A model generated the notes under the pieces. It saw only the letters and a program-made list of their open reading frames with translations. It did no database searches and had not been told where the DNA came from. Both the position numbers and the translations under genes were made by a program. Below are positions 3,605-25,399 of a stretch of 64,000 nt of DNA, in pieces. Source of the DNA: Alphaproteobacteria bacterium (GTDB lineage Bacteria > Pseudomonadota > Alphaproteobacteria > Reyranellales > Reyranellaceae); contig CANJHI010000003.1 in NCBI GenBank assembly GCA_947474005.1, forward strand, positions 1 to 64,000, written 5' to 3'. How positions within the stretch are numbered: the stretch's first letter is position 1; every line of letters starts with the position of its first letter.

Positions 3605-4072
3605 TCAGTGCATCGGTGCGGCGGCGCCGATCGCCGCCGCCTTGAGCGCGATGTCGATGCTGCCGGCCTTCTCGAACACCAGCGTCACCGGGATTTCCGA
3701 ATCCTTGGCGATCGGCGCCTTCAGGCCCATGAACATGATGTGGTAGCCGCCCGGCTTCAGCATCACCGTGGCGCCCGGTGCGATCTCGAGTCCCTTCTCG
3801 AGTTCGCGCATCTTCATCACGTTGTTTTCCATGCGGACCTCGTGAACCTCGACCTTGGCCGAGACGGCGCTGCGCACGGCGATCAGTCGATCGGGCGTCG
3901 TGCCCTTGTTGGTGACGGTGAGAAAGCCGCCCGCCGACTGCGCCGTGGCCGGCGTGGCCCGCGTCCAGGGCTGGCTGATCTCGAGCGAGCCCAGCTTGTA
4001 GTTCTGGGCCCAGGCTGGTGCGAAAGCGGAAGCGGTGATCGCAGCGGCAAGGATGAGACGGCGGGCAATCAT
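3605..4072 (-). CDS. PCu(A)C-family periplasmic copper chaperone
   Basis: Periplasmic Cu(I) carrier (DUF461/PCu(A)C) that in relatives delivers copper to the CuA site of cytochrome c oxidase. The 155-residue product has a signal peptide (1-22, ending APAWA). The copper motif is visible as H77, M88, H111 and M113, close to the family pattern H-X10-M-X21-H-X-M. The ATG at 4072 is preceded by AGGAG at good spacing; the longer start at 4117 lacks a signal peptide and is rejected. It is the last gene of the apparent copper operon, 11 bases after the TlpA-like gene. Confidence 0.93.
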   Translation of the reverse strand: MIARRLILAAAITASAFAPAWAQNYKLGSLEISQPWTRATPATAQSAGGFLTVTNKGTTPDRLIAVRSAVSAKVEVHEVRMENNVMKMRELEKGLEIAPGATVMLKPGGYHIMFMGLKAPIAKDSEIPVTLVFEKAGSIDIALKAAAIGAAAPMH

Positions 4073-4083
4073 GACGGCAACTC

Positions 4084-4572
4084 CTAGGGGCGGGATTTCG
4101 ATTGAGTGTCGAGCCACGCCCGCACCTGGGCGAGGTCGGCAACGCCCGGCAGCACGGTGACGGTGCCGTCGGCCGCGACCATCGCGGTGCGCGGCAGTTC
4201 ACCGGCCCAGGCCGGGTCGATCTCGAAGCGCAGGCGCTCGTAGAAGCGGTCGGTGAAGCTCCAGCTTTCGGCGCCGCCGAGGCCAGCCTTCGCCAGCGTC
4301 GCCGAGACGCGCTCCGATTCCTGCGGCTGCGGATCGGCGGCGACCAGGACCAGGCGGAGGTCGGGCCGCTCCTTCAGCAGCTTGCCCCACTGCGGCAGCT
4401 CGACGAGGCAGGGCGCGCAGGTGAGGCCCCAGAAATGGATCACGGTCGGCTTGCCCGCGTGCGCGGCGCTGAGCTTTGCCCAGCTGCCGCGTGCAAACGA
4501 CTGCGGATCTGCGGCGTGCGCGCCGAATGAGGCGAGCACCACCAGGAGGGCGAGGAAGCCTGCTGGTCTCAC
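4084..4572 (-). CDS. TlpA-like periplasmic thioredoxin-fold protein
   Basis: The 162-residue redoxin-family protein has an N-terminal signal or anchor (VRPAGFLALLVVLASFGAHA). The active-site CAPC motif is at C52/C55 in HFWGLTCAPCLVELPQW, and a cis-Pro region follows (GELPRTAMVAADG). TlpA and Sco-type proteins reduce or metallate cysteines during cytochrome oxidase assembly, which suits the PCu(A)C gene that follows. It starts with GTG at 4572, overlapping the stop of the upstream BNR gene by four bases (GTGA), so translation is probably coupled. Substrate is not known from sequence. Confidence 0.88.
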   Translation of the reverse strand: MRPAGFLALLVVLASFGAHAADPQSFARGSWAKLSAAHAGKPTVIHFWGLTCAPCLVELPQWGKLLKERPDLRLVLVAADPQPQESERVSATLAKAGLGGAESWSFTDRFYERLRFEIDPAWAGELPRTAMVAADGTVTVLPGVADLAQVRAWLDTQSKSRP

Positions 4573-5774
4573 GACGCCCCGCCCAGCGCGATCAGGCGAT
4601 AGCCCTCGTTCTTGGTGAGCCACGAGAGATAGGCCCGGCCGCCGCGGCCGACCAGCAGCGGATGGTCCGAGGCGTCGCTGGTCTCGGCCACGGTCATGGC
4701 GGCACTCCAGTTGCGGCCGCTGTCGGTCGAGAGCTGCCAGCGTACCACCACCTTGTTGCCGTCGAACTCCTTCCACACGAGATGGACCGTCGTGCCGTCG
4801 GCCAGCAGGAAAGGCCGCGACGGCTGGCGATCGGGCGAACCGAGCGCACGCGGCGGACCGAAGGCGGCGCCGGCCGAATCGGCGCGGGCATAGAACAGCC
4901 CCTTGCGTGCCGAGCCGTTGGTGAACCACGCGGCGTGCTGGCTGCCGTCGGAGGCGATCGCGAGGCTGGGCCCGTGATGCGGGCAGGCTTCGATCTTCCA
5001 GTTGTCGGTGCTGACGCGATTGAGCGGACCCGGCGTCGCGGGATCCTTGAAGGTGATGACCGCATGGTCGCGCACCGAGCCGGGGAAGATGTTGCGGAAG
5101 ATCACCGCCGGCCGGCCGGGGCCGGCGAAGGCGACGCCAAGGCGGCAGCACTCGCAGGTATTGTCGAGCGCGATGTGCGTGTCGGCAAAATGCGCCCCCT
5201 CGTCGTCGGACCAGGCATAGGCCAGTGCCGCCCCTGGATAGGGCTTGCCGGCTTTTCGCGCGGCAGGGCCGTTGCGCTTGTCGAGCCACGCGGTGAAGAC
5301 CTTGCCGGCGGGATCGATCGCCACCGTCTCGAAGCGTTGGCTGGTGGTGTCGGCGGTGAGCGGCTGCGGCTTGGTGAACGAGGCGCCGTTGTCGGTCGAG
5401 CGCGCATGAAAGGCGCGGCCGTTGAAGTTCTTGTCCTGGAAAATGGCGAAGGTGACGATCGCCACCCCCCGGGGATCGACGGCGATGCGCGCCCGCGCGT
5501 CGGGGCCCCAGTCGAGGTTGAGCGGCTCGGGCGTCACCGCGACCGGCGCCGTAAAGGTCCGGCCGAGGTCGGACGAGCGCACGACCACGACCCGGTTGCC
5601 CTCGGTCCGCACCAGCCACAGCGTGCCGTCGGGCCCGAAGGCCGGCGTGGCGGTGAAGGCCTCCGGCGCCCCAGCCGCAGTTGCTCCCGCCATTCCCGGG
5701 CTGGCGTGATTGTGCTGCGCGGCGGCGGTGCCCGCCGGCAGCAGGAGTCCGAGACAGAGAAGAACGTGGCGCAT
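4569..5774 (-). CDS. Secreted BNR/Asp-box repeat (sialidase-fold) protein
   Basis: The 401-residue protein has a signal peptide (MRHVLLCLGLLLPAGTAAA) followed by a His/Met-rich stretch (QHNHASPGM). At least four Asp-box repeats are visible: SSDLGRTF, STDNGASF, SDDEGAHF and STDSGRNW, typical of a six-bladed beta-propeller. No convincing sialidase Arg triad or FRIP motif was noticed, so enzyme activity is doubtful. A CECC cluster (DNTCECCRLG, near residue 200) and CPHHGP nearby look like metal or disulfide sites. Its place inside a copper-type operon suggests a periplasmic metal-binding or assembly role; this is inference. Confidence 0.75.
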   Translation of the reverse strand: MRHVLLCLGLLLPAGTAAAQHNHASPGMAGATAAGAPEAFTATPAFGPDGTLWLVRTEGNRVVVVRSSDLGRTFTAPVAVTPEPLNLDWGPDARARIAVDPRGVAIVTFAIFQDKNFNGRAFHARSTDNGASFTKPQPLTADTTSQRFETVAIDPAGKVFTAWLDKRNGPAARKAGKPYPGAALAYAWSDDEGAHFADTHIALDNTCECCRLGVAFAGPGRPAVIFRNIFPGSVRDHAVITFKDPATPGPLNRVSTDNWKIEACPHHGPSLAIASDGSQHAAWFTNGSARKGLFYARADSAGAAFGPPRALGSPDRQPSRPFLLADGTTVHLVWKEFDGNKVVVRWQLSTDSGRNWSAAMTVAETSDASDHPLLVGRGGRAYLSWLTKNEGYRLIALGGAS

Positions 5775-5795
5775 GGCTCTTCCCTTCTACACCTT

Positions 5796-8003
5796 TCAGA
5801 ATCTCATCCGAAGGCCCGCGATGGCGGTAAACGGCATGCCCATCGCGGGGATGCTCGTGGCGCTCACCGTCGGGCCCTCGAACGTGGTCGTCGTGTAGCC
5901 CGCGGCCAGGTACTGGTAGTTGGTCAGGTTCTGGATGCTGGCATAGAGATCGACATTCTTGATCGGCGAGTAGGTCGCGCCGAGGTCGATCAAGGTGGCC
6001 CCCTGGTTGAGCTGGGTGTGGCCGGTGTCGTTCCAGTAGTTCGGGAACGCCTTCAGGTTGGCGGTCAGCACCAGTTCGGGAAGGGGCCGCCATTCGACAT
6101 TGGCGTTGAACATCGTGACCGGCACCTGGCCGAGCTGGACCCCGGTGCGGATCAGCGCCGGATAGTTGGAGGTCGTCATGTAGGCGATGGTGTTGGTGAA
6201 GCTGGCGCCGAACCGCAGCTCCGGCGTCGCCTGCCATCCGCCGATGATCTCGAGGCCCTGGAACACGGCGCTGCCGGTGTTCTGGTACTGCCGCACCGTG
6301 GTGAAGCCGGGGCTGAGACCGGCAGCGGAGATGAACGGCGCGGCGCAGGCCGGGTTGGTGTTGCACACCGTCACGAAGTCGATGAAGTTGTCGAGGTTGT
6401 TGTTGAAGACCGTTCCCGACAGGGTGAACTCCTTCCACTTGAAGTCGAAGCCCACTTCCTCGCCGATGTTCGTCATCGGCTGCAGGTTCGGGTTGATGGC
6501 GGTGTAGGCCGTGCCCGCCGCGAAGCTGCGGTACATCTGGTTCATGCCCGGCGCCGAGAAGTTGCGATAGGCCGCGGCGCGTAGGCTGAACTCCTCGAAC
6601 AGGTAGTATTTCAGGCCGATGCGCGGATCGAAGCTGCTGTAGGTCGAGTTGGCCACTGGGACCAGGGTGTTGGAGTTCGCGGTCAGCACGCTGGCGTTCA
6701 GCGCCTGGTAGAAATCGCCGCGCAGGCCGACCGTCACCTCGAGGGGGATGCCGCTGAAGCGGTAGGTGCCCTGGCCGAAGACGCCCTCGGTGCGGTGCTC
6801 GCCGTTGGCAATGAAGATGGTCGGCTTGGCCGTGGCGCTGGCGTAGAGGTTGTTGTTGTCGTTGATCGTCGTGCGGCGCATGTCGACGCCGATCTTGACG
6901 TCCTTGATCGGCCCGACGTCGCCCTGGAAGAAAACCGAGCCGCCCTGGTCGGTGTTGGGCGCACTCTCGATCTGGCTGACGAACTGGTTGGTGGCGTTGA
7001 TGTTGTTCAGCGTGTAGGCGCCGCTCGCCACGTTGGTGGTGCCGAACACGCCGCCGCCCGCCCAGACGTTGAAGTTGATCGAGGTCTTGTTCTCGAACTC
7101 ATAGGCGCCGCCGAACTGGCCGCGGTAATTGGACCAGTTGTTGTGCGCCATGGCCCACACCAGCCCGTCCTCGTAGGTCTGGTTGAAGTTGGCCTTGGCG
7201 AAGAGCTTGAGGTTGTCGCTGGGCGTCAGGAAGACGGAGAAGGCGAGGTTGTCGGCCTTCGACGCGGTCGGCGTCAGGTTGATGTTCTGGTACTGCGACG
7301 GCGTGAGGTTGTAGCCCGAGCTCTGGTTGTGGTTGTAGGCGAGCCCGACGTTGAGCTTGTCGTTCACCGCCACGCTGCCGGCGATCTCGGCGGCGCCGGT
7401 GTTGTAGTTGCCGTAGCTCACGTCGACCGCCGCGGCGGTCTTGGTGGGCTCGCGGGTCACGATGTTGATGATGCCGCCCATCGCCATGTTGCCCCACAGG
7501 CTGGTGGCGCCGCCACCGCGAATGACCTCGATCCGGTCGATGGTGTTCTTGGGGATGGCGCTCCAGTTGACGGTGCGGAAATAGGGATCGTTCACCGGCA
7601 CGCCGTCGACCATCACCAGCGTGTTGATGGTGGTGCTGGTGCCGAAGCCGCGGATGCTGACGGGCTGGCCGGTCGGATGGAGCTGGCCGGAGGGGATGTT
7701 CTGCGTCCACACGCCGGGAATGCGATTGATGATCTGGTCGACGCCGGTTTCCGGCATCGCCTGGACCTGGGCGCGCGTCATCACGGTGGTGCTGACGTCG
7801 AGCTTCTCGAGATCGGAGCCGCGGCCGGCGCTGACGGTGATCGGCGGCAGGCTGATCGGCGGGGTGGCGGCCGCCGGTGCGTCCGGCGTCGTGACTGTCG
7901 TCGGCTGCGGTGTTGCCGGCGGCGTGCCTTGTGCCTTGGCCAGAGTCGGAATCAGGGCAAGGCCCGCGAAAGCGGCGAAGGTCGCCGCACGAATCGATAG
8001 CAT
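5796..8003 (-). CDS. TonB-dependent outer-membrane receptor (probably copper-related)
   Basis: The 735-residue receptor has a signal peptide (cut near LIPTLAKAQ), a TonB-box-like LPPITVSAG, and a plug domain (GVDQIINRIPGVWTQN, SIRGFGTSTTINTLVMVDG, IEVIRGGGATSLWGNMAMGG). A long barrel follows, ending in LRMRF with terminal Phe. Neighbours are a DUF2946 protein upstream and BNR, TlpA-like and PCu(A)C proteins downstream, an arrangement that points to copper or a copper chelate as cargo. It begins 64 bases after the DUF2946 stop. No riboswitch was seen in its leader. The substrate is inferred only from neighbours. Confidence 0.88.
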   Translation of the reverse strand: MLSIRAATFAAFAGLALIPTLAKAQGTPPATPQPTTVTTPDAPAAATPPISLPPITVSAGRGSDLEKLDVSTTVMTRAQVQAMPETGVDQIINRIPGVWTQNIPSGQLHPTGQPVSIRGFGTSTTINTLVMVDGVPVNDPYFRTVNWSAIPKNTIDRIEVIRGGGATSLWGNMAMGGIINIVTREPTKTAAAVDVSYGNYNTGAAEIAGSVAVNDKLNVGLAYNHNQSSGYNLTPSQYQNINLTPTASKADNLAFSVFLTPSDNLKLFAKANFNQTYEDGLVWAMAHNNWSNYRGQFGGAYEFENKTSINFNVWAGGGVFGTTNVASGAYTLNNINATNQFVSQIESAPNTDQGGSVFFQGDVGPIKDVKIGVDMRRTTINDNNNLYASATAKPTIFIANGEHRTEGVFGQGTYRFSGIPLEVTVGLRGDFYQALNASVLTANSNTLVPVANSTYSSFDPRIGLKYYLFEEFSLRAAAYRNFSAPGMNQMYRSFAAGTAYTAINPNLQPMTNIGEEVGFDFKWKEFTLSGTVFNNNLDNFIDFVTVCNTNPACAAPFISAAGLSPGFTTVRQYQNTGSAVFQGLEIIGGWQATPELRFGASFTNTIAYMTTSNYPALIRTGVQLGQVPVTMFNANVEWRPLPELVLTANLKAFPNYWNDTGHTQLNQGATLIDLGATYSPIKNVDLYASIQNLTNYQYLAAGYTTTTFEGPTVSATSIPAMGMPFTAIAGLRMRF

Positions 8004-8067
8004 GAAAGTCTCCCCACGAATGACGAATGAACGCGACGCGCACCGAGGCGCATCGCGGTTTCAGGTG

Positions 8068-8457
8068 TCAGACGTGGGAGGGTGGGGCTCTGGGCTGGAT
8101 CGGCCCGTCGCGGATGCCGACGGGCGAGATTGCATCGACCGCCGCCACGAAGCGGATCGCGGTCGGGACGGGCTCGACGAGGATGAAGGCGGCGAAGAGT
8201 TCGGCCAGCACGGGCGCGTGTGCGAGGCCGAGGCAGCACTCGTGGCTCTTGCCGGCGGCCGGCGCGGAGCCCTGATCGGCGTCCTGGCTTGGAGCCGTCT
8301 GGCAGAAAGCGCCCCACATCTTCGCGGCGGCTTCCGGCCCGCCGTCCCGCATCAGCGCGGCGTGGGCGAGCGGCTGCAGGAAATTGAGGGTGATCGCAAA
8401 CAGCGCCGCGGCCAAAGAGGCCGCGCGCCAGCCCGACTCGGAGCGTTTGCGGATCAT
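8068..8457 (-). CDS. DUF2946-type small exported protein
   Basis: The 129-residue protein has an N-terminal hydrophobic segment (AASLAAALFAITLNFLQPLAHAA) and a conserved Cys patch: a single C in WGAFCQTA and HECC in GKSHECCLGLAHA. A second hydrophobic stretch follows (LAELFAAFILV). Short proteins with this HxCC pattern are assigned to DUF2946, which recurs next to TonB-dependent copper receptors. It appears to be the first gene of the copper set. The biochemical role of DUF2946 is unknown; metal binding through the Cys/His residues is inference. Confidence 0.75.
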   Translation of the reverse strand: MIRKRSESGWRAASLAAALFAITLNFLQPLAHAALMRDGGPEAAAKMWGAFCQTAPSQDADQGSAPAAGKSHECCLGLAHAPVLAELFAAFILVEPVPTAIRFVAAVDAISPVGIRDGPIQPRAPPSHV

Positions 8458-19628: not shown

Positions 19629-20243
19629 CTACTCGAAGCCGCATTCCTTGGCAGTCGTGGTGATCGCCAGCTTGCGGCCGCCGTCGCGGAAGCAGCCGCT
19701 GGACCAGGTTCCCGAGAACTGGGCGTCTGCCGCATCGGTATAGACGCCCTGGCCATTTGGCCTGCTGTCCAGCCATTCGCCCTCGTAGCGGGCGCCATCG
19801 GCCCATACCATCGTGCCCCGACCGGTACGCAGGCCCTCGAACCAGTCGCCGTCGTAGCGGTCGCCGTTGGTGAAGTCGTAGACGCCCTGGCCGTGCCGCC
19901 AGCCGTCGCGCCATTCGCCTTCATAGCGGTCGGCGATCACGGTGCTGGTGGCGGCGCCGCGACCGTTCTCCCAGCCGTCGCGCATCTCGCCCTCGTAACG
20001 GTCGGTCGGCCGATCGTCGTCGAACCATTGCAAGACGCCGGTACCCTCGGCGATGCCGTTCGGACAGGCGCCCGACCAGGTCACCGACTCGCGCGGTTGA
20101 GGCGCCGGATTGCGGATCTTGCAGCCGGTCTTGCCGTCGGCGATCCAGCTGTCCGGCGAGGGTGCCTGGGCGAACGTGGGGGCGGACGTCGACAGGGCAG
20201 CAATCGTGATCGCCAGAAGCAAAGCGGCAGCGCGCAGGTTCAT
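19629..20243 (-). CDS. Secreted MORN-repeat protein (short paralogue)
   Basis: The 204-residue protein has a signal peptide (MNLRAAALLLAITIAALSTSAPTFAQ). It has about four MORN repeats of the form YEGEWRDGWRHGQGVYDFTN, and a C-terminal Cys tail ending KECGFE. Its N-terminal WIADGKTGCKIRNPAPQPRE and its tail match the longer MORN protein at 20745-21818, so the two are paralogues. Bacterial MORN proteins are of varied or unknown function. The ATG at 20252 three codons upstream is an alternative start; no clear ribosome-binding site decides. Confidence 0.82.
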   Translation of the reverse strand: MNLRAAALLLAITIAALSTSAPTFAQAPSPDSWIADGKTGCKIRNPAPQPRESVTWSGACPNGIAEGTGVLQWFDDDRPTDRYEGEMRDGWENGRGAATSTVIADRYEGEWRDGWRHGQGVYDFTNGDRYDGDWFEGLRTGRGTMVWADGARYEGEWLDSRPNGQGVYTDAADAQFSGTWSSGCFRDGGRKLAITTTAKECGFE

Positions 20244-20305
20244 GGCCGCCATTCTAGGTCGGACAGGACTTGCCGACGAGGGGCCTCCGCGCGACGATGA
20301 GGCCC

Positions 20306-20668
20306 ATGAAGCTCTTGCTCGCCGTATCGGTCGCACTGGCTCTCGGCGCCTGTGCCAACCCGAACAGCTACGAAAAATCGCTCGGTGGCTATACCGGTGC
20401 GCCGGAGTCGGCGCTGATTGCCACCCTGGGCGAGCCGTCATCGGTCGATGAAGCGGGCGGCGTTCGGTATCTGAGCTACCGGCAGCACCGCGCCTTCTAT
20501 ATTCCCGCCGCCATGCCGCTCTACCAGCCGATCTGCCCGCCCGGCGATTGCGTGCCGCTCGGCGGCGCCAAAGGCTTCATGCTGAACGAGCAGTGCACGA
20601 CCACCTTTGCGATCGAGGACGGCAAGGTCAAAGACTGGCGAAGAGAGGGCCGGGCCTGCGGCGGCTGA
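20306..20668 (+). CDS. Small lipoprotein of unknown function
   Basis: The 120-residue product begins MKLLLAVSVALALGAC, a signal with the lipobox LGAC, so the mature protein would be a lipid-anchored Cys-Ala-Asn... species. The rest (GYTGAPESALIATLGEPSSVDEAGGVRYLSYRQHRAFYIP) resembles the BamE/SmpA-type 'small step' fold, in which a LGEP turn recurs. This likeness is weak and no function is claimed. A start at 20297 is equally possible. It lies between the two MORN genes, on the opposite strand. Confidence 0.7.
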   Translation: MKLLLAVSVALALGACANPNSYEKSLGGYTGAPESALIATLGEPSSVDEAGGVRYLSYRQHRAFYIPAAMPLYQPICPPGDCVPLGGAKGFMLNEQCTTTFAIEDGKVKDWRREGRACGG

Positions 20669-20744
20669 TCTGTAGAAGGACCGGTGGTGCTGTGGTGCTC
20701 GCTGCCCGATCGCCAAGGTGTTCCGACGCTGATGGGGATAGCGG

Positions 20745-21818
20745 TTACTCGAAACCGCATTGCTGCATGGTCCAGCCGAAGGTGGCTTTGCGGTCTTCTC
20801 GCCGGTAGCAGCCTTGCATCCAGATTCCCGCGAAGATTTCGCTGTCGCTGCGCGTCAGTACGCCGTATCCGTTCGGCTTGTTGTCACGCCACTCGCCGTC
20901 GTAGCTGTCGCCGTTGGATGCCGAGAAAAGACCTAGGCCATCCCGCGCGCCATCGCGATAGTCGCCCTTGTAGCGGTCTCCGTTCGCTGACGTGAAGACG
21001 CCCCGGCCATTCTGCATGTCGTCACGCCACTCGCCGTCGTAGCGATCGCCGTTGGCGAATGTCTGGAGGCCAAAGCCGTTTCGCTTGTCGTCGCGGTACT
21101 GGCCTTCATAGCGGTCACCGTCGGCCGACATGAAGATGCCCCGGCCATTCCGCAGGCCATCGCGGTATTCGCCCTCATAGCGTTCGCCGGTCGACAACGT
21201 TTCCACGCCGCGGCCGTTGTGGAAGCCGTCTCGGAACTCGCCTTCGTAGCGGTCGCCGTTGGCCGATATGAGAACACCCTTGCCGTCCAATTGACCGTTG
21301 CGGAACTCACCCTCGTAGCGGTCGCCGTCTCCCGTGAAGACGCCCTGGCCATTCACCCTGCCGTCGCGGAACTCGCCCTCATAGCGGACGCCGTTCGCAA
21401 GGATCTGGATGCCTTGGCCATTCAGTTCGCCGTCGCGGAACTCACCTTCGTCGCGTGCGCCATTCGCGTATATGTAAAGGCCCCGACCGTTCAATTTGCC
21501 GTCGCGGAATTCGCCGTCGTAGATGCCGCCGCCCGCATAGGCATAGACGCCCCGACCCTCGGGCCTGCCGTCTCGAAGCTCGCCGTCGTAGCGCCCGTTC
21601 GGCGTTCCATCCTTGAGCCACTGCAATACACCGCGACCTTGCGAGGTGCCGGTCGCGCACGCGCCGGTCCAACTGATCGCTTCGTTGGGTTCGGGGGCAG
21701 GATTCCAGACCCGGCACCCGGTCTTGGCGTCCGCAATCCATCCGGGTTGCGGCACCTGCGCGACCACAGGCAAAGCCGCAAAAAGAAGAAAGGCGAACAA
21801 CGGGAATCGTGCCGGCAT
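20745..21818 (-). CDS. Secreted MORN-repeat protein (long paralogue, 11 repeats)
   Basis: The 357-residue protein has a signal peptide (cut near LPVVAQ) and a short Cys-containing head (GWIADAKTGCRVWNPAPEP). Eleven tandem MORN repeats of about 23 residues follow (YEGEFRDGxxNGRGVxxxxNGDR) at about residues 77-328. The tail contains Cys and ends QQCGFE. Head and tail match the short paralogue, so the difference in size comes mainly from repeat number. Recombination between the 69-base repeats could change copy number. Function is unknown; surface or periplasmic scaffolding is a guess. Confidence 0.87.
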   Translation of the reverse strand: MPARFPLFAFLLFAALPVVAQVPQPGWIADAKTGCRVWNPAPEPNEAISWTGACATGTSQGRGVLQWLKDGTPNGRYDGELRDGRPEGRGVYAYAGGGIYDGEFRDGKLNGRGLYIYANGARDEGEFRDGELNGQGIQILANGVRYEGEFRDGRVNGQGVFTGDGDRYEGEFRNGQLDGKGVLISANGDRYEGEFRDGFHNGRGVETLSTGERYEGEYRDGLRNGRGIFMSADGDRYEGQYRDDKRNGFGLQTFANGDRYDGEWRDDMQNGRGVFTSANGDRYKGDYRDGARDGLGLFSASNGDSYDGEWRDNKPNGYGVLTRSDSEIFAGIWMQGCYRREDRKATFGWTMQQCGFE

Positions 21819-21965: not shown

Positions 21966-22571
21966 ATGCGTGTTCTGGCGCTCTGCCTGCTGGTGAGTCT
22001 TCTCGCGGCATGCGCCGCGCCAAGGCCGGAGTCCGCCGCCGATCCGCAGGCGGCACTGCTCGCCAGCCTGCGCCAGGGCGGCTACCTCATTTATCTGCGC
22101 CATGCCGATACCGCGGTGGCGCCCGAGTCCGCGGTGCGCGACCTCGCCGACTGCGGCTGGCAACGCAATCTGAGTGAGCGCGGCCGCGAGCAGGCCGCGG
22201 CCCTGGGCGCGATGCTGCGCCAGCAGGGGATTGCCGTGAGCACAGTCGAGAGCAGCGGCTTTTGCCGAACGCGCCAGACGGCCGAACTGGTCTTCGGCCG
22301 CGCGCCGACGGTAAGCGCCGATCTCTTCTATCATGTGAGCCAGACGCCGGCCGAGATCGCGGCCGAAACGGCCAACCTGAAGGTGCGGCTCGGCCGGCGG
22401 CCCGCTGCCGGTAATATCGCCCTGGTCGGCCATGCGCCGACGTTCCGCGATGCCACCGGGATCGAACTGGCAGAAGGGCAGGGTGCGATCATCAAGCCCG
22501 CCGGTGACGGTACGTTCAGCATCGTCGGCCGCTTCGATACCAGCGGGATTTCAGCCGGCCGCGGCGCGTGA
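21966..22571 (+). CDS. Histidine phosphatase superfamily lipoprotein
   Basis: The 201-residue protein has a lipoprotein signal (MRVLALCLLVSLLAACAA, lipobox LAAC). The phosphoglycerate-mutase-like RHG-type motif reads YLIYLRHADT, and a second His is in ALVGHAPTF. NLSERGREQAAALG and SGFCRTRQTAELVFG are also characteristic. It would act in the periplasm on an unknown phosphate ester. Its 3' end overlaps the convergent DUF2063 gene by 21 bases. Confidence 0.85.
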   Translation: MRVLALCLLVSLLAACAAPRPESAADPQAALLASLRQGGYLIYLRHADTAVAPESAVRDLADCGWQRNLSERGREQAAALGAMLRQQGIAVSTVESSGFCRTRQTAELVFGRAPTVSADLFYHVSQTPAEIAAETANLKVRLGRRPAAGNIALVGHAPTFRDATGIELAEGQGAIIKPAGDGTFSIVGRFDTSGISAGRGA

Positions 22572-23363
22572 CGAAAAGCCTGCGATCATGCCGCCTTCGA
22601 CCCAGGTGCGGAGCAGCCAAGCGGCGCGGGCGGGCGCCTGATCGTCGCCGGTGAAGGCAGCCACCGTCTCGCAGAGTTCGGGAAAGGAACGCCCGGCGAC
22701 CAGCGCCTCGAGCATCGCGGCTTCGTCTGTATCGAGCGAGCGGAAGCTGGAAACGCGTTCGGGTCGCCAGATCGCCCAGGTCACCGGCTCGTCCGCGCGG
22801 TCGACCTCCAGATTGCCCGGCTCGACCTCGTCCCGGCGCTGCCAGGCCTGCGCCACTTCGAACGCGAAGGTGCGCCGGTGCAGCGACGGCAAGGCGGTGA
22901 AGGTGAGCGTCTCCCAGGCATCCGGCGGCAGGGCCAGCAATACGTCGGCGGCGATTGGGGCCACGTCAGCCGCGTCGAAGGTCTCGCCCAACGTCCATTC
23001 GAAGCGCACCATCTCGACGGCGGCCGGCGCCTTGTCGTAGGGCGCGGTCCTGGCCATGAAATCTGCCAGGTCCCTGCCGAACCAGCGCACCGAGGGATGG
23101 CGCGAGGGATGGGCGGCGATGTAGGCCCGCGCCACATGGTCGAAATCGGCGGGGCCCGCCATCGCCATCAGGCCGGGGTAATCGTTGGTCAGCACCTCGA
23201 TCAGGCGCAGCGCATAGCCGTCGCGATAGACGTCGAGCAGGGTGACCCGGTCAGCCTTCTTCGTATCGCGCACGGCCGCCTGGAAGGCATCGCTGCTGCG
23301 GAACAGGTAATCCTGGAAGGCGCGCTGGAGATCGCCCAATGAGCCGGTGTTGGTTCCGCTCAC
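22551..23363 (-). CDS. BufC/HvfC-type protein (DUF2063), partner of the DUF692 enzyme
   Basis: The 270-residue protein has the DUF2063 'putative DNA-binding' N-terminal domain (LQRAFQDYLFRSSDAFQAAV, VYRDGYALRLIEVLTNDYPGL) and a C-terminal region ending TWVEGGMIAGFSS. In described bufferin and methanobactin systems this family pairs with the MNIO enzyme and helps recognise the precursor, despite the DNA-binding label. GTG at 23363 overlaps the bufB-like stop by four bases (GTGA), so the two are translated together. Confidence 0.88.
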   Translation of the reverse strand: MSGTNTGSLGDLQRAFQDYLFRSSDAFQAAVRDTKKADRVTLLDVYRDGYALRLIEVLTNDYPGLMAMAGPADFDHVARAYIAAHPSRHPSVRWFGRDLADFMARTAPYDKAPAAVEMVRFEWTLGETFDAADVAPIAADVLLALPPDAWETLTFTALPSLHRRTFAFEVAQAWQRRDEVEPGNLEVDRADEPVTWAIWRPERVSSFRSLDTDEAAMLEALVAGRSFPELCETVAAFTGDDQAPARAAWLLRTWVEGGMIAGFSSRAAAG

Positions 23364-24193
23364 GCGGCAACCTCGCGCGCGACGCTGGCGGCGATGCCGC
23401 GCGCGACATCGAGCTCGGCCAGCAGCTCTTCGTAGGGTGGGATGTCGGCGTCGCGCTCGATCATGGTCGGCACGCCAGGGAAGAGCCGCACCGCCTCGGC
23501 GTAGAGTGTCCAGACGTCGGGCACGATGGGATGATCGTGGGTGTCGATGATATGGCTGCCCTTGTGGGTATGGCCGGCGAGATGGAACTGCCGCACGCGC
23601 TCGCGCGGCATGGCGCGCAGGAAGGCCTGCGCGTCGAACTCGTGATTGGAGGCGCTGACGTAGACGTTGTTGATATCGAGCAGGATGTCGCAATCGGCGC
23701 GCCGGCCGAGCTCGGCGATGAATTCCCATTCGCTGAGCTCGGAGGCGGCATAGGTGACGTAGCTCGAGACGTTCTCCAGCACGAGCCGGCGGCCGAGCCG
23801 GTCCTGCACGCGCTTCACCCGTTCGGCGACATGGTCCAGCGCCTCCTCGGTGTAGGGCAGCGGCAGCAGGTCGTGCACGTTGAGGCCGCGCAGGCCGGTG
23901 AAGCAGAGATGATCGGAGATCCACATCGGCTCGACGCGATCGGCGAGCGCCTTTAGGTCGTCGAGATAGCGCTCGTCCAGCGGATCGATCGAGCCGATGG
24001 ACAGCGACACGCCGTGCAGGGCGATCGGATAGTCGCGGCGGATGCGGTCGAGCCAGTGCAGCGGGCTGCCGCCCGGCACCATGTAGTTTTCCGACAGTGC
24101 CTCGAACCAGCTCACCCGGCCGGGACTGGCGGCGATCTCCTCGTAGTGCTCGGGCCGGAGCCCCAGCCCGAAGTCGACGGCGGCAGCACACAT
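23360..24193 (-). CDS. DUF692/MNIO-family oxidative enzyme, BufB-like
   Basis: The multinuclear non-haem iron oxidative enzyme (277 residues from the chosen ATG) belongs to a family that modifies cysteines of precursor peptides. Family motifs are GLGLRPEHYEEI, LHGVSLSIGS, WISDHLCF, LENVSSYV, DINNVYVSASNH, HLAGHTH and DTHDHP; these supply the His/Asp/Glu iron ligands. A TTG seven codons upstream (24214) is an alternative start. It follows three Cys-rich precursor genes and a hairpin, and overlaps the DUF2063 partner, the standard bufA-bufB-bufC order. The exact product modification is not predictable from sequence. Confidence 0.93.
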   Translation of the reverse strand: MCAAAVDFGLGLRPEHYEEIAASPGRVSWFEALSENYMVPGGSPLHWLDRIRRDYPIALHGVSLSIGSIDPLDERYLDDLKALADRVEPMWISDHLCFTGLRGLNVHDLLPLPYTEEALDHVAERVKRVQDRLGRRLVLENVSSYVTYAASELSEWEFIAELGRRADCDILLDINNVYVSASNHEFDAQAFLRAMPRERVRQFHLAGHTHKGSHIIDTHDHPIVPDVWTLYAEAVRLFPGVPTMIERDADIPPYEELLAELDVARGIAASVAREVAA

Positions 24194-24220
24194 GCGGTCT
24201 ATTTTACTCCACAAATGGGA

Positions 24221-24249
24221 CGGGCGTCCGCGGTTTCCCCGGACGCCCG
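24221..24249 (-). terminator. Hairpin between precursor 3 and the MNIO gene
   Basis: CGGGCGTCC (24221-24229) pairs perfectly with GGACGCCCG (24241-24249). It lies about 20 bases after the last precursor stop and no T-run follows, so partial attenuation or 3'-end protection of the precursor mRNA is more likely than full termination. Confidence 0.7.
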
Positions 24250-24268
24250 CAACTCTGCGTGCTTGAAA

Positions 24269-24493
24269 CTACTTGGACTTGAGTACCGTGCACTCGAACG
24301 AGCTGCCGGCGTTGACGAAGCCCTGGCCCTTGCAGGCATTCATGCCCTTACACGACGACTTGGCGGACTTGCAGGCGCTCTGGCCCTTGCAGGCGTTGAC
24401 GCCGGTGCACGCGACCTGGGCGAACGCGGCTGGGGCGAAAGTACCGACCGCGAAGACGGCTGCGGCGGTAGCGAACACTGTGCGCTTGGTCAT
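24269..24493 (-). CDS. Bufferin-type Cys-rich precursor peptide, copy 3 (MNIO-proximal)
   Basis: The 74-residue precursor has a Sec signal (MTKRTVFATAAAVFAVGTFAPAAFAQ) and a core with six Cys (29, 35, 41, 48, 54, 68) spaced CX5CX5CX6CX5CX13C. These sit in repeats of the form ACKGQSACK and CKGMNACKGQG. This pattern recalls the BufA2 family of periplasmic copper-binding peptides modified by a DUF692 enzyme; that assignment is from memory of the family and was not searched. GGGAG precedes the ATG at 24493. It is 81% identical (60/74) to copy 2. Confidence 0.87.
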   Translation of the reverse strand: MTKRTVFATAAAVFAVGTFAPAAFAQVACTGVNACKGQSACKSAKSSCKGMNACKGQGFVNAGSSFECTVLKSK

Positions 24494-24600
24494 GACGTTT
24501 TGCTCCCTAGGTTGTTGCCGCAGCGATCTGCGCCGCTGCGGTTTCGAAACTATGTACCGGCATGTGGAATTGCGCAACGCCTGCAACTCGGAGGACGAAG

Positions 24601-24630
24601 CGGGCGTCCGCGGTTCTCCGGGGATGCCCG
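24601..24630 (-). terminator. Hairpin after precursor copy 2
   Basis: CGGGCGTCC (24601-24609) pairs with GGATGCCCG (24622-24630), nine pairs with one G-U. It is nearly the same sequence as the hairpin after copy 3, showing that the duplicated unit includes the hairpin. Confidence 0.65.
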
Positions 24631-24649
24631 CAACGCCAACCGCGTGGAA

Positions 24650-24874
24650 TTACTTGGACTTGAGTACCGTGCACTCGAACGAGTTGCCGGTGGTGACGAA
24701 GCCCTGGCCCTTGCAGGCATTCATGCCCTTGCAGGCCGACGAGGCGGTCTTGCGGGCGCTCTGGCCCTTGCAGGCATTGGCGCCGGCGTACGCGACCTGG
24801 GCAAAGGCGGCGGGAGCGAAAGCACCGACGGCGAAGACGGTGGCGGCGGTAACGAACATGGTGCGCTTGGTCAT
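24650..24874 (-). CDS. Bufferin-type precursor peptide, copy 2, lacking two core cysteines
   Basis: The 74-residue paralogue has the same signal peptide and KGMNACKGQGF core as copy 3. Here Cys29 is replaced by Tyr and Cys41 by Arg, leaving four Cys (35, 48, 54, 68). The reading frame, ribosome-binding site (AGGGAG) and C-terminal SFECTVLKSK are intact. The change therefore looks like divergence rather than simple decay. It may bind metal with altered stoichiometry or be under relaxed selection. Confidence 0.83.
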   Translation of the reverse strand: MTKRTMFVTAATVFAVGAFAPAAFAQVAYAGANACKGQSARKTASSACKGMNACKGQGFVTTGNSFECTVLKSK

Positions 24875-24980
24875 GAAAATTGTCTCCCTACATGCAGGAC
24901 GATCCTGCCTACCGGATGCGGCGGCGAGCGAGGTCCCGATCAGGGCGGCCTTCTCACAGTTTGGTGAGTGGAAAAAAGTC

Positions 24981-25008
24981 GGGGCGCCGCAGTTTCCCGC
25001 GGCGCCCC
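24981..25008 (-). terminator. Hairpin after precursor copy 1
   Basis: GGGGCGCCGC (24981-24990) pairs perfectly with GCGGCGCCCC (24999-25008) around AGTTTCCC. It lies 24 bases beyond the stop of the first precursor gene. The loop resembles those of the other two precursor hairpins. Confidence 0.7.
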
Positions 25009-25032
25009 GGGCTCGTCGGGGGATTGACGAGG

Positions 25033-25266
25033 TTAGATGACCTTGCCGCCCTTGGAGGTGCAGCTGACGCCGTCCGTGGCCTCGGTCCAGCCCTGGCCCT
25101 TGCAGGCGTTCATGCCCTTGCAGGCCGACGAGGCGGTCTTGCAGGCGCTGGTGCCCTTGCAGGAATTGACGCCGCTGCACTTCACGCCGTCGGCGTGCGC
25201 GGCGGAGGCGAAGGTGCCGGCGGCGAAGATCGCGGCGGCCGTGGCGATGAGGGTCTGCTTGGTCAT
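25033..25266 (-). CDS. Bufferin-type Cys-rich precursor peptide, copy 1 (promoter-proximal)
   Basis: The 77-residue precursor has a signal peptide (MTKQTLIATAAAIFAAGTFASAAHA) and six Cys (30, 36, 42, 49, 55, 69) in the same spacing as copy 3. The tail differs (GWTEATDGVSCTSKGGKVI). A GGGAGTGACAC segment precedes the ATG at 25266. It is the first gene of the cluster; no operator could be identified in the 130 bases before it. Copper buffering in the periplasm is the expected role from described bufferins. Confidence 0.87.
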   Translation of the reverse strand: MTKQTLIATAAAIFAAGTFASAAHADGVKCSGVNSCKGTSACKTASSACKGMNACKGQGWTEATDGVSCTSKGGKVI

Positions 25267-25399
25267 GTGTCACTCCCTTGATGAATCATTCGTAGTGAGC
25301 GCGGGCGTAGAGGGCGCGGGGGCGTCTCCACATCGCAACCATGGCCCGAGGCGTGCTCACCGGGAAGTCAGGCCTTGGCGATGCCGCGTGATGGCGCGT

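Follow-up and report, generated by a model that had tools for sequence, protein, structure and literature searches.

A Buf2-type bufferin cluster with an expanded precursor array and a probably decaying middle copy in a Reyranellaceae genome

The 64,000-nucleotide stretch analyzed here (the window; contig CANJHI010000003.1 of an alphaproteobacterium of the family Reyranellaceae) very probably contains a Buf2-type bufferin (captophorin) cluster in which extra precursors raise the dose over one enzyme pair, in an array that turns over and whose second precursor is probably decaying. It is a genuine Buf2 bufferin cluster of the ordinary sort whose precursor set has been expanded, and its distinctive point is a middle copy with four cysteines. 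By its nearest named relatives, the genome was assigned to Reyranella.

All five genes lie on the minus strand in the order A-A-A-B-C, which matches the A-B-C order of Buf2 clusters. Precursor 1 (bufA2, 25033..25266, 77 amino acids, six cysteines) and precursor 3 (bufA2, 24269..24493, 74 amino acids, six cysteines) matched the NCBIfam BufA2 model NF050166 at 81.1 and 68.5 bits, respectively, above its curated cut-off of 60 bits, and precursor 2 (bufA2-like, 24650..24874, 74 amino acids, four cysteines) fell just under it with 55.9 bits. The bufB gene (23360..24193) encodes a 277-amino-acid MNIO (DUF692) bufferin maturase that matched the NCBIfam BufB model NF050167 at 379.7 bits (curated cut-off, 310 bits) and PF05114 at 365 bits, and bufC (22551..23363, GTG start) encodes a DUF2063 partner (PF09836, 72.6 bits). 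The bufferin assignment made in the preliminary description is thereby upheld, as is its account of three tandem, exported-type Cys-rich peptides of 74-77 residues upstream of DUF692 (MNIO) and DUF2063 genes. All three N-termini, as read from the sequence, comprise a basic start and a hydrophobic stretch followed by A-H-A or A-F-A, in the manner of Sec-type signals. The block KGMNACKGQG, also described before, is common to the three precursors, and the 81% identity reported for two of them is that between the proteins of precursors 2 and 3 (89% at the DNA level). Two other statements held in part: the overlapping gene order applies to bufB and bufC, where the bufC start overlaps the bufB stop by 4 nt (GTGA), but not to the precursor genes, which are followed by spacers of 158, 156, and 75 nt; and the shared Cys spacing applies to precursors 1 and 3, but not to precursor 2, in which four of the six positions are kept. 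A domain search yielded no DUF2282 match in any of the three array precursors, which places them outside Buf1, and no DoxX gene was seen adjoining the array.

With 3BWW, a close HvfB relative, as a bridge for residue mapping, the alignment identified N176, D217, and H219 of BufB as the counterparts of the essential HvfB residues N175, D242, and H244. BufC matched the HvfC family over its full length but weakly (33 against 142 bits), and its C-terminal (RRE-type) part was covered only in that match; a comparison of BufC with solved structures returned no match. Bufferin-type enzymes convert Cys to 5-thiooxazole, and the exported peptides bind copper (PMC12452194, PMC13097082). In Buf1, a disulphide joins the first and last Cys and the central Cys are modified; the thiooxazole and copper data for Buf2 are preliminary, and metals other than copper may be what some bufferins answer to (PMC12452194). 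By analogy with these relatives, BufB and BufC would most likely act in the cytoplasm by oxidising the central cysteines, those in CK/CKG motifs, to 5-thiooxazoles, after which the modified peptides would be exported and would trap excess copper in the periplasm. A C1-C6 disulphide is probable by analogy with Buf1; an AlphaFold model of precursor 1 (78 sequences) was of low confidence (mean pLDDT 59.4, pTM 0.34), too low to inform Cys pairing or a fold comparison.

The same three-gene array is present in the nearest relative, locus L045, an independent assembly whose BufB is 96% identical to that of the window. The L045 spacers resemble the window spacers one by one and are mutually distinct, and the array copies are therefore considered orthologous by position. 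This positional orthology was taken from the intergenic DNA; the precursor tree was unable to settle whether the duplication of the KSK-type precursors is common with L045. The window belongs to a draft genome in 316 contigs, and tandem repeats are easily misassembled, so that the array or its Cys changes might be assembly or sequencing errors; the fact that L045 repeats the three-gene order, with spacers that match those of the window and differ from one another, makes this highly improbable, and sequencing error is further opposed by the 25 codons at which precursor 2 differs from its L045 orthologue, which imply that its changes extend beyond the two cysteines. The public records titled Rhizobium (L045) and Candidatus Omnitrophota (L054) are metagenome-assembled genomes with clusters whose BufB is 96% and 90% identical, respectively, to that of the window, which suggests mislabelled or mixed records.

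The two substitutions in precursor 2 are C1 to Tyr29 and C3 to Arg41. In a set of 134 distinct full-length precursors, drawn from Reyranella as well as more distant bacteria, no sequence but precursor 2 lacks C1 or C3; C2, C5, and C6 are invariant throughout this set, and C4 is absent from five others. Since the L045 orthologue of precursor 2 has all six cysteines, the loss most likely took place in the lineage of the window. Pairwise dN/dS against L045 was 0.44 for precursor 1, 0.37 for precursor 2, and 0.22 for precursor 3 (the last being 91% identical to its L045 copy), values that derive from sequences too short for a firm test of relaxed constraint and that for precursor 1 may involve a copy that is no strict orthologue. 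Precursor 2 is probably a copy that is losing function, judging from its sequence. Decay is nevertheless not proven, because the reading frame and the apparent signal peptide are intact and dN/dS is below 1.

Variation in precursor number is widespread in the genus. The BufA2 model had a match in 64 of 65 Reyranella genomes, weak matches such as that to the Buf1-type peptide of the window's own genome included, and in 45 of the 65 the match was above the cut-off. At 36 Reyranella-group bufB loci, the number of intact precursors per bufB was one (17 loci), two (9), three (5), four (4), or none (1), these counts being minimum values as some loci end at contig edges. The precursors fall into two classes according to their C-termini, GGKV-type and KSK-type, which often occur side by side, and degenerate extra copies were found in L046, L054, and L055. 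With one to four precursors per bufB, and decayed copies as well, the triplication is a matter of routine gene birth and death in an established arrangement. Bufferin precursors in tandem, and several precursors per enzyme pair in one genome, were already described in 2025 (Antoine et al. 2025, PMC12452194).

The preliminary description had taken the three precursors for one enzyme as a sign of dosage selection or peptide diversity. The multiplicity is genuine and recurs across the genus, but the middle copy looks like one in decay rather than one selected for diversity. Diversification would mean that the three precursors are retained for differences between their products in metal, affinity, or site, and that the four-Cys peptide is functional, having three central cysteines open to modification but no C1-C6 disulphide. 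Consistent with it are the recurrence of the GGKV-type and KSK-type classes side by side, the intact frame of precursor 2 with its dN/dS of 0.37, and the maintenance of five-Cys variants without C4 in a clade of single-precursor clusters, which indicates that the loss of a Cys is tolerable. The loss of C1 and C3, however, is recent and unique among the 134 precursors, and damage is plain in the other extra copies of the genus; we thus regard diversification as unlikely. In the favored dosage reading, the extra genes would lift the precursor dose relative to the single BufBC pair, and the array would be renewed by duplication and decay, with precursor 2 probably on its way out.

The sequence also contains signals that may bear on how the array is expressed. 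Directly 3' of precursor 1, a hairpin with a 13-bp stem is followed by the T-run ACTTTTTT (24980..25009, minus strand); this terminator-like element is conserved in L045, and comparable hairpins lie 3' of many precursors in relatives. Because terminator-like sites were no more numerous in this region than in shuffled sequences, the case for a terminator is based on conservation and position. Upstream of precursor 1, an alignment of the window with eleven relatives revealed conserved blocks in a region that is probably the promoter (25267..25399, minus strand). A sigma-70 scan of the sequence upstream of precursor 1 found no promoter, and a search upstream of the array for the sigmaF-type motif treated below found none. 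As the conserved terminator-like hairpin comes after it, precursor 1 would probably be made in excess, and read-through or a second start would supply the enzymes and the other two precursors.

Two further bufferin loci are present in the same genome. The MNIO of the array, presented earlier as the single one, is single at its locus but not in the genome, since a second MNIO lies beside a Buf1-type precursor on contig C99. That Buf1-type set (L014, G000:C99, 3321-5185) consists of a DUF2282 precursor (86.3 bits), the MNIO, and a DUF2063 partner. On contig C141 (L013, G000:C141, 2709-4884), doxX and an orphan bufA2 are divergent from a gene pair encoding an ECF sigma factor and a protein labelled NrsF-like by its gene position and appearance. 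Both divergent sides carry the motif GTAACG-N16-CGAA, which closely resembles the sigmaF site of Caulobacter, GTAACC-N16-CGAA (PMC3511200). It is possible, and only a little short of probable, that the bufBC pair of the window acts on four Buf2 precursors from two differently controlled loci, namely the three of the array and, by modification in trans, the orphan of the bufA2-doxX unit under ECF sigma/NrsF. Such an arrangement would represent sigmaF-type control of a Buf2 precursor, which is reported to be absent from Buf2 clusters.

Of the 179 precursor entries whose upstream DNA was long enough, 7 had this motif within 120 nt upstream (background, ~0.0014 per 100 bp), at a distance of 69-71 nt from the start codon in every case; the other 172 lacked it. 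The seven are L013, L035, L038, L063, L064, L065, and L068, of which five are in the precursor tree and form one clade, and L035 and L038 resemble this clade by sequence. Matches to the sigma factor and the NrsF-like protein were obtained at all seven loci, although those in L064, L065, and L068 were weaker; the genes adjoin the precursor in L013, L035, L038, L063, and L064, are located ~1.9 kb off in L065, and are farther away in L068. According to Antoine et al., sigma and NrsF genes accompany Buf1 and not Buf2 clusters (PMC12452194). In light of that report, the motif-bearing Reyranella clade looks like an exception, and its sigmaF-type promoters are the most novel part of the present analysis. 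BufA2 precursors with five cysteines, in which C4 is replaced by Ala or Gly (SPAKGQ/SPGKGQ), were found in L063 (3387), L064 (4683), L065 (3831), L068 (4683), and L119 (4552), and four of these five lie within the clade with sigmaF-type promoters.

Elsewhere in the window, a copper-type operon (3605-8457, minus strand) encodes a DUF2946 protein, a TonB-dependent receptor, BNR-like and redoxin-like proteins, and a PCuAC copper chaperone. It had been put forward as independent context for the bufferin cluster; its genes are indeed of copper type, but it is unlinked and ~14 kb away, and hence provides weak context. Two adjoining, related genes at 19629-21818 (minus strand) encode repeat proteins of 270 and 357 amino acids with YEGE(F/W)RDG-like repeats, which appear MORN-like by eye.

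The cluster is a clean natural example of a single RiPP enzyme whose precursor has been amplified, and across the genus the copies range from intact through altered to decayed, which makes the question of substrate dose versus peptide diversity directly testable. Moreover, variants that have naturally lost cysteines (C1 and C3 in the window, C4 in another clade) are useful for establishing which cysteines matter.

Among known systems, the window array is most readily compared with the Buf2 clusters (BufA2, Buf_6/12Cys; bufABC; PMC12452194), which share its precursor family, its MNIO and DUF2063 partner, A-B-C order, and tandem precursors, and whose Sec signal resembles the N-termini read from the window sequence. 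It differs from them in having three precursors, the middle one with four rather than six cysteines, and in that no adjoining DoxX gene was seen. Buf1 systems, represented by Caulobacter and by contig C99, are alike in their enzyme and partner families and in the proposed chemistry and function. However, their own four-Cys DUF2282 precursors belong to another family than those of the window, and the sigmaF/NrsF control of Buf1 in Caulobacter was not seen at the window array. The EGKCG-repeat captophorins (oxazolin, fontiphorin, and gonophorin; PMC13097082) have a related MNIO and DUF2063 partner, carry 5-thiooxazole on Cys, and bind copper, but their precursors are built of Lys-Cys repeats, unlike those of the window. 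FonBC leaves an NACKG motif unprocessed (PMC13097082), which implies that its substrate recognition differs from that of the window system.
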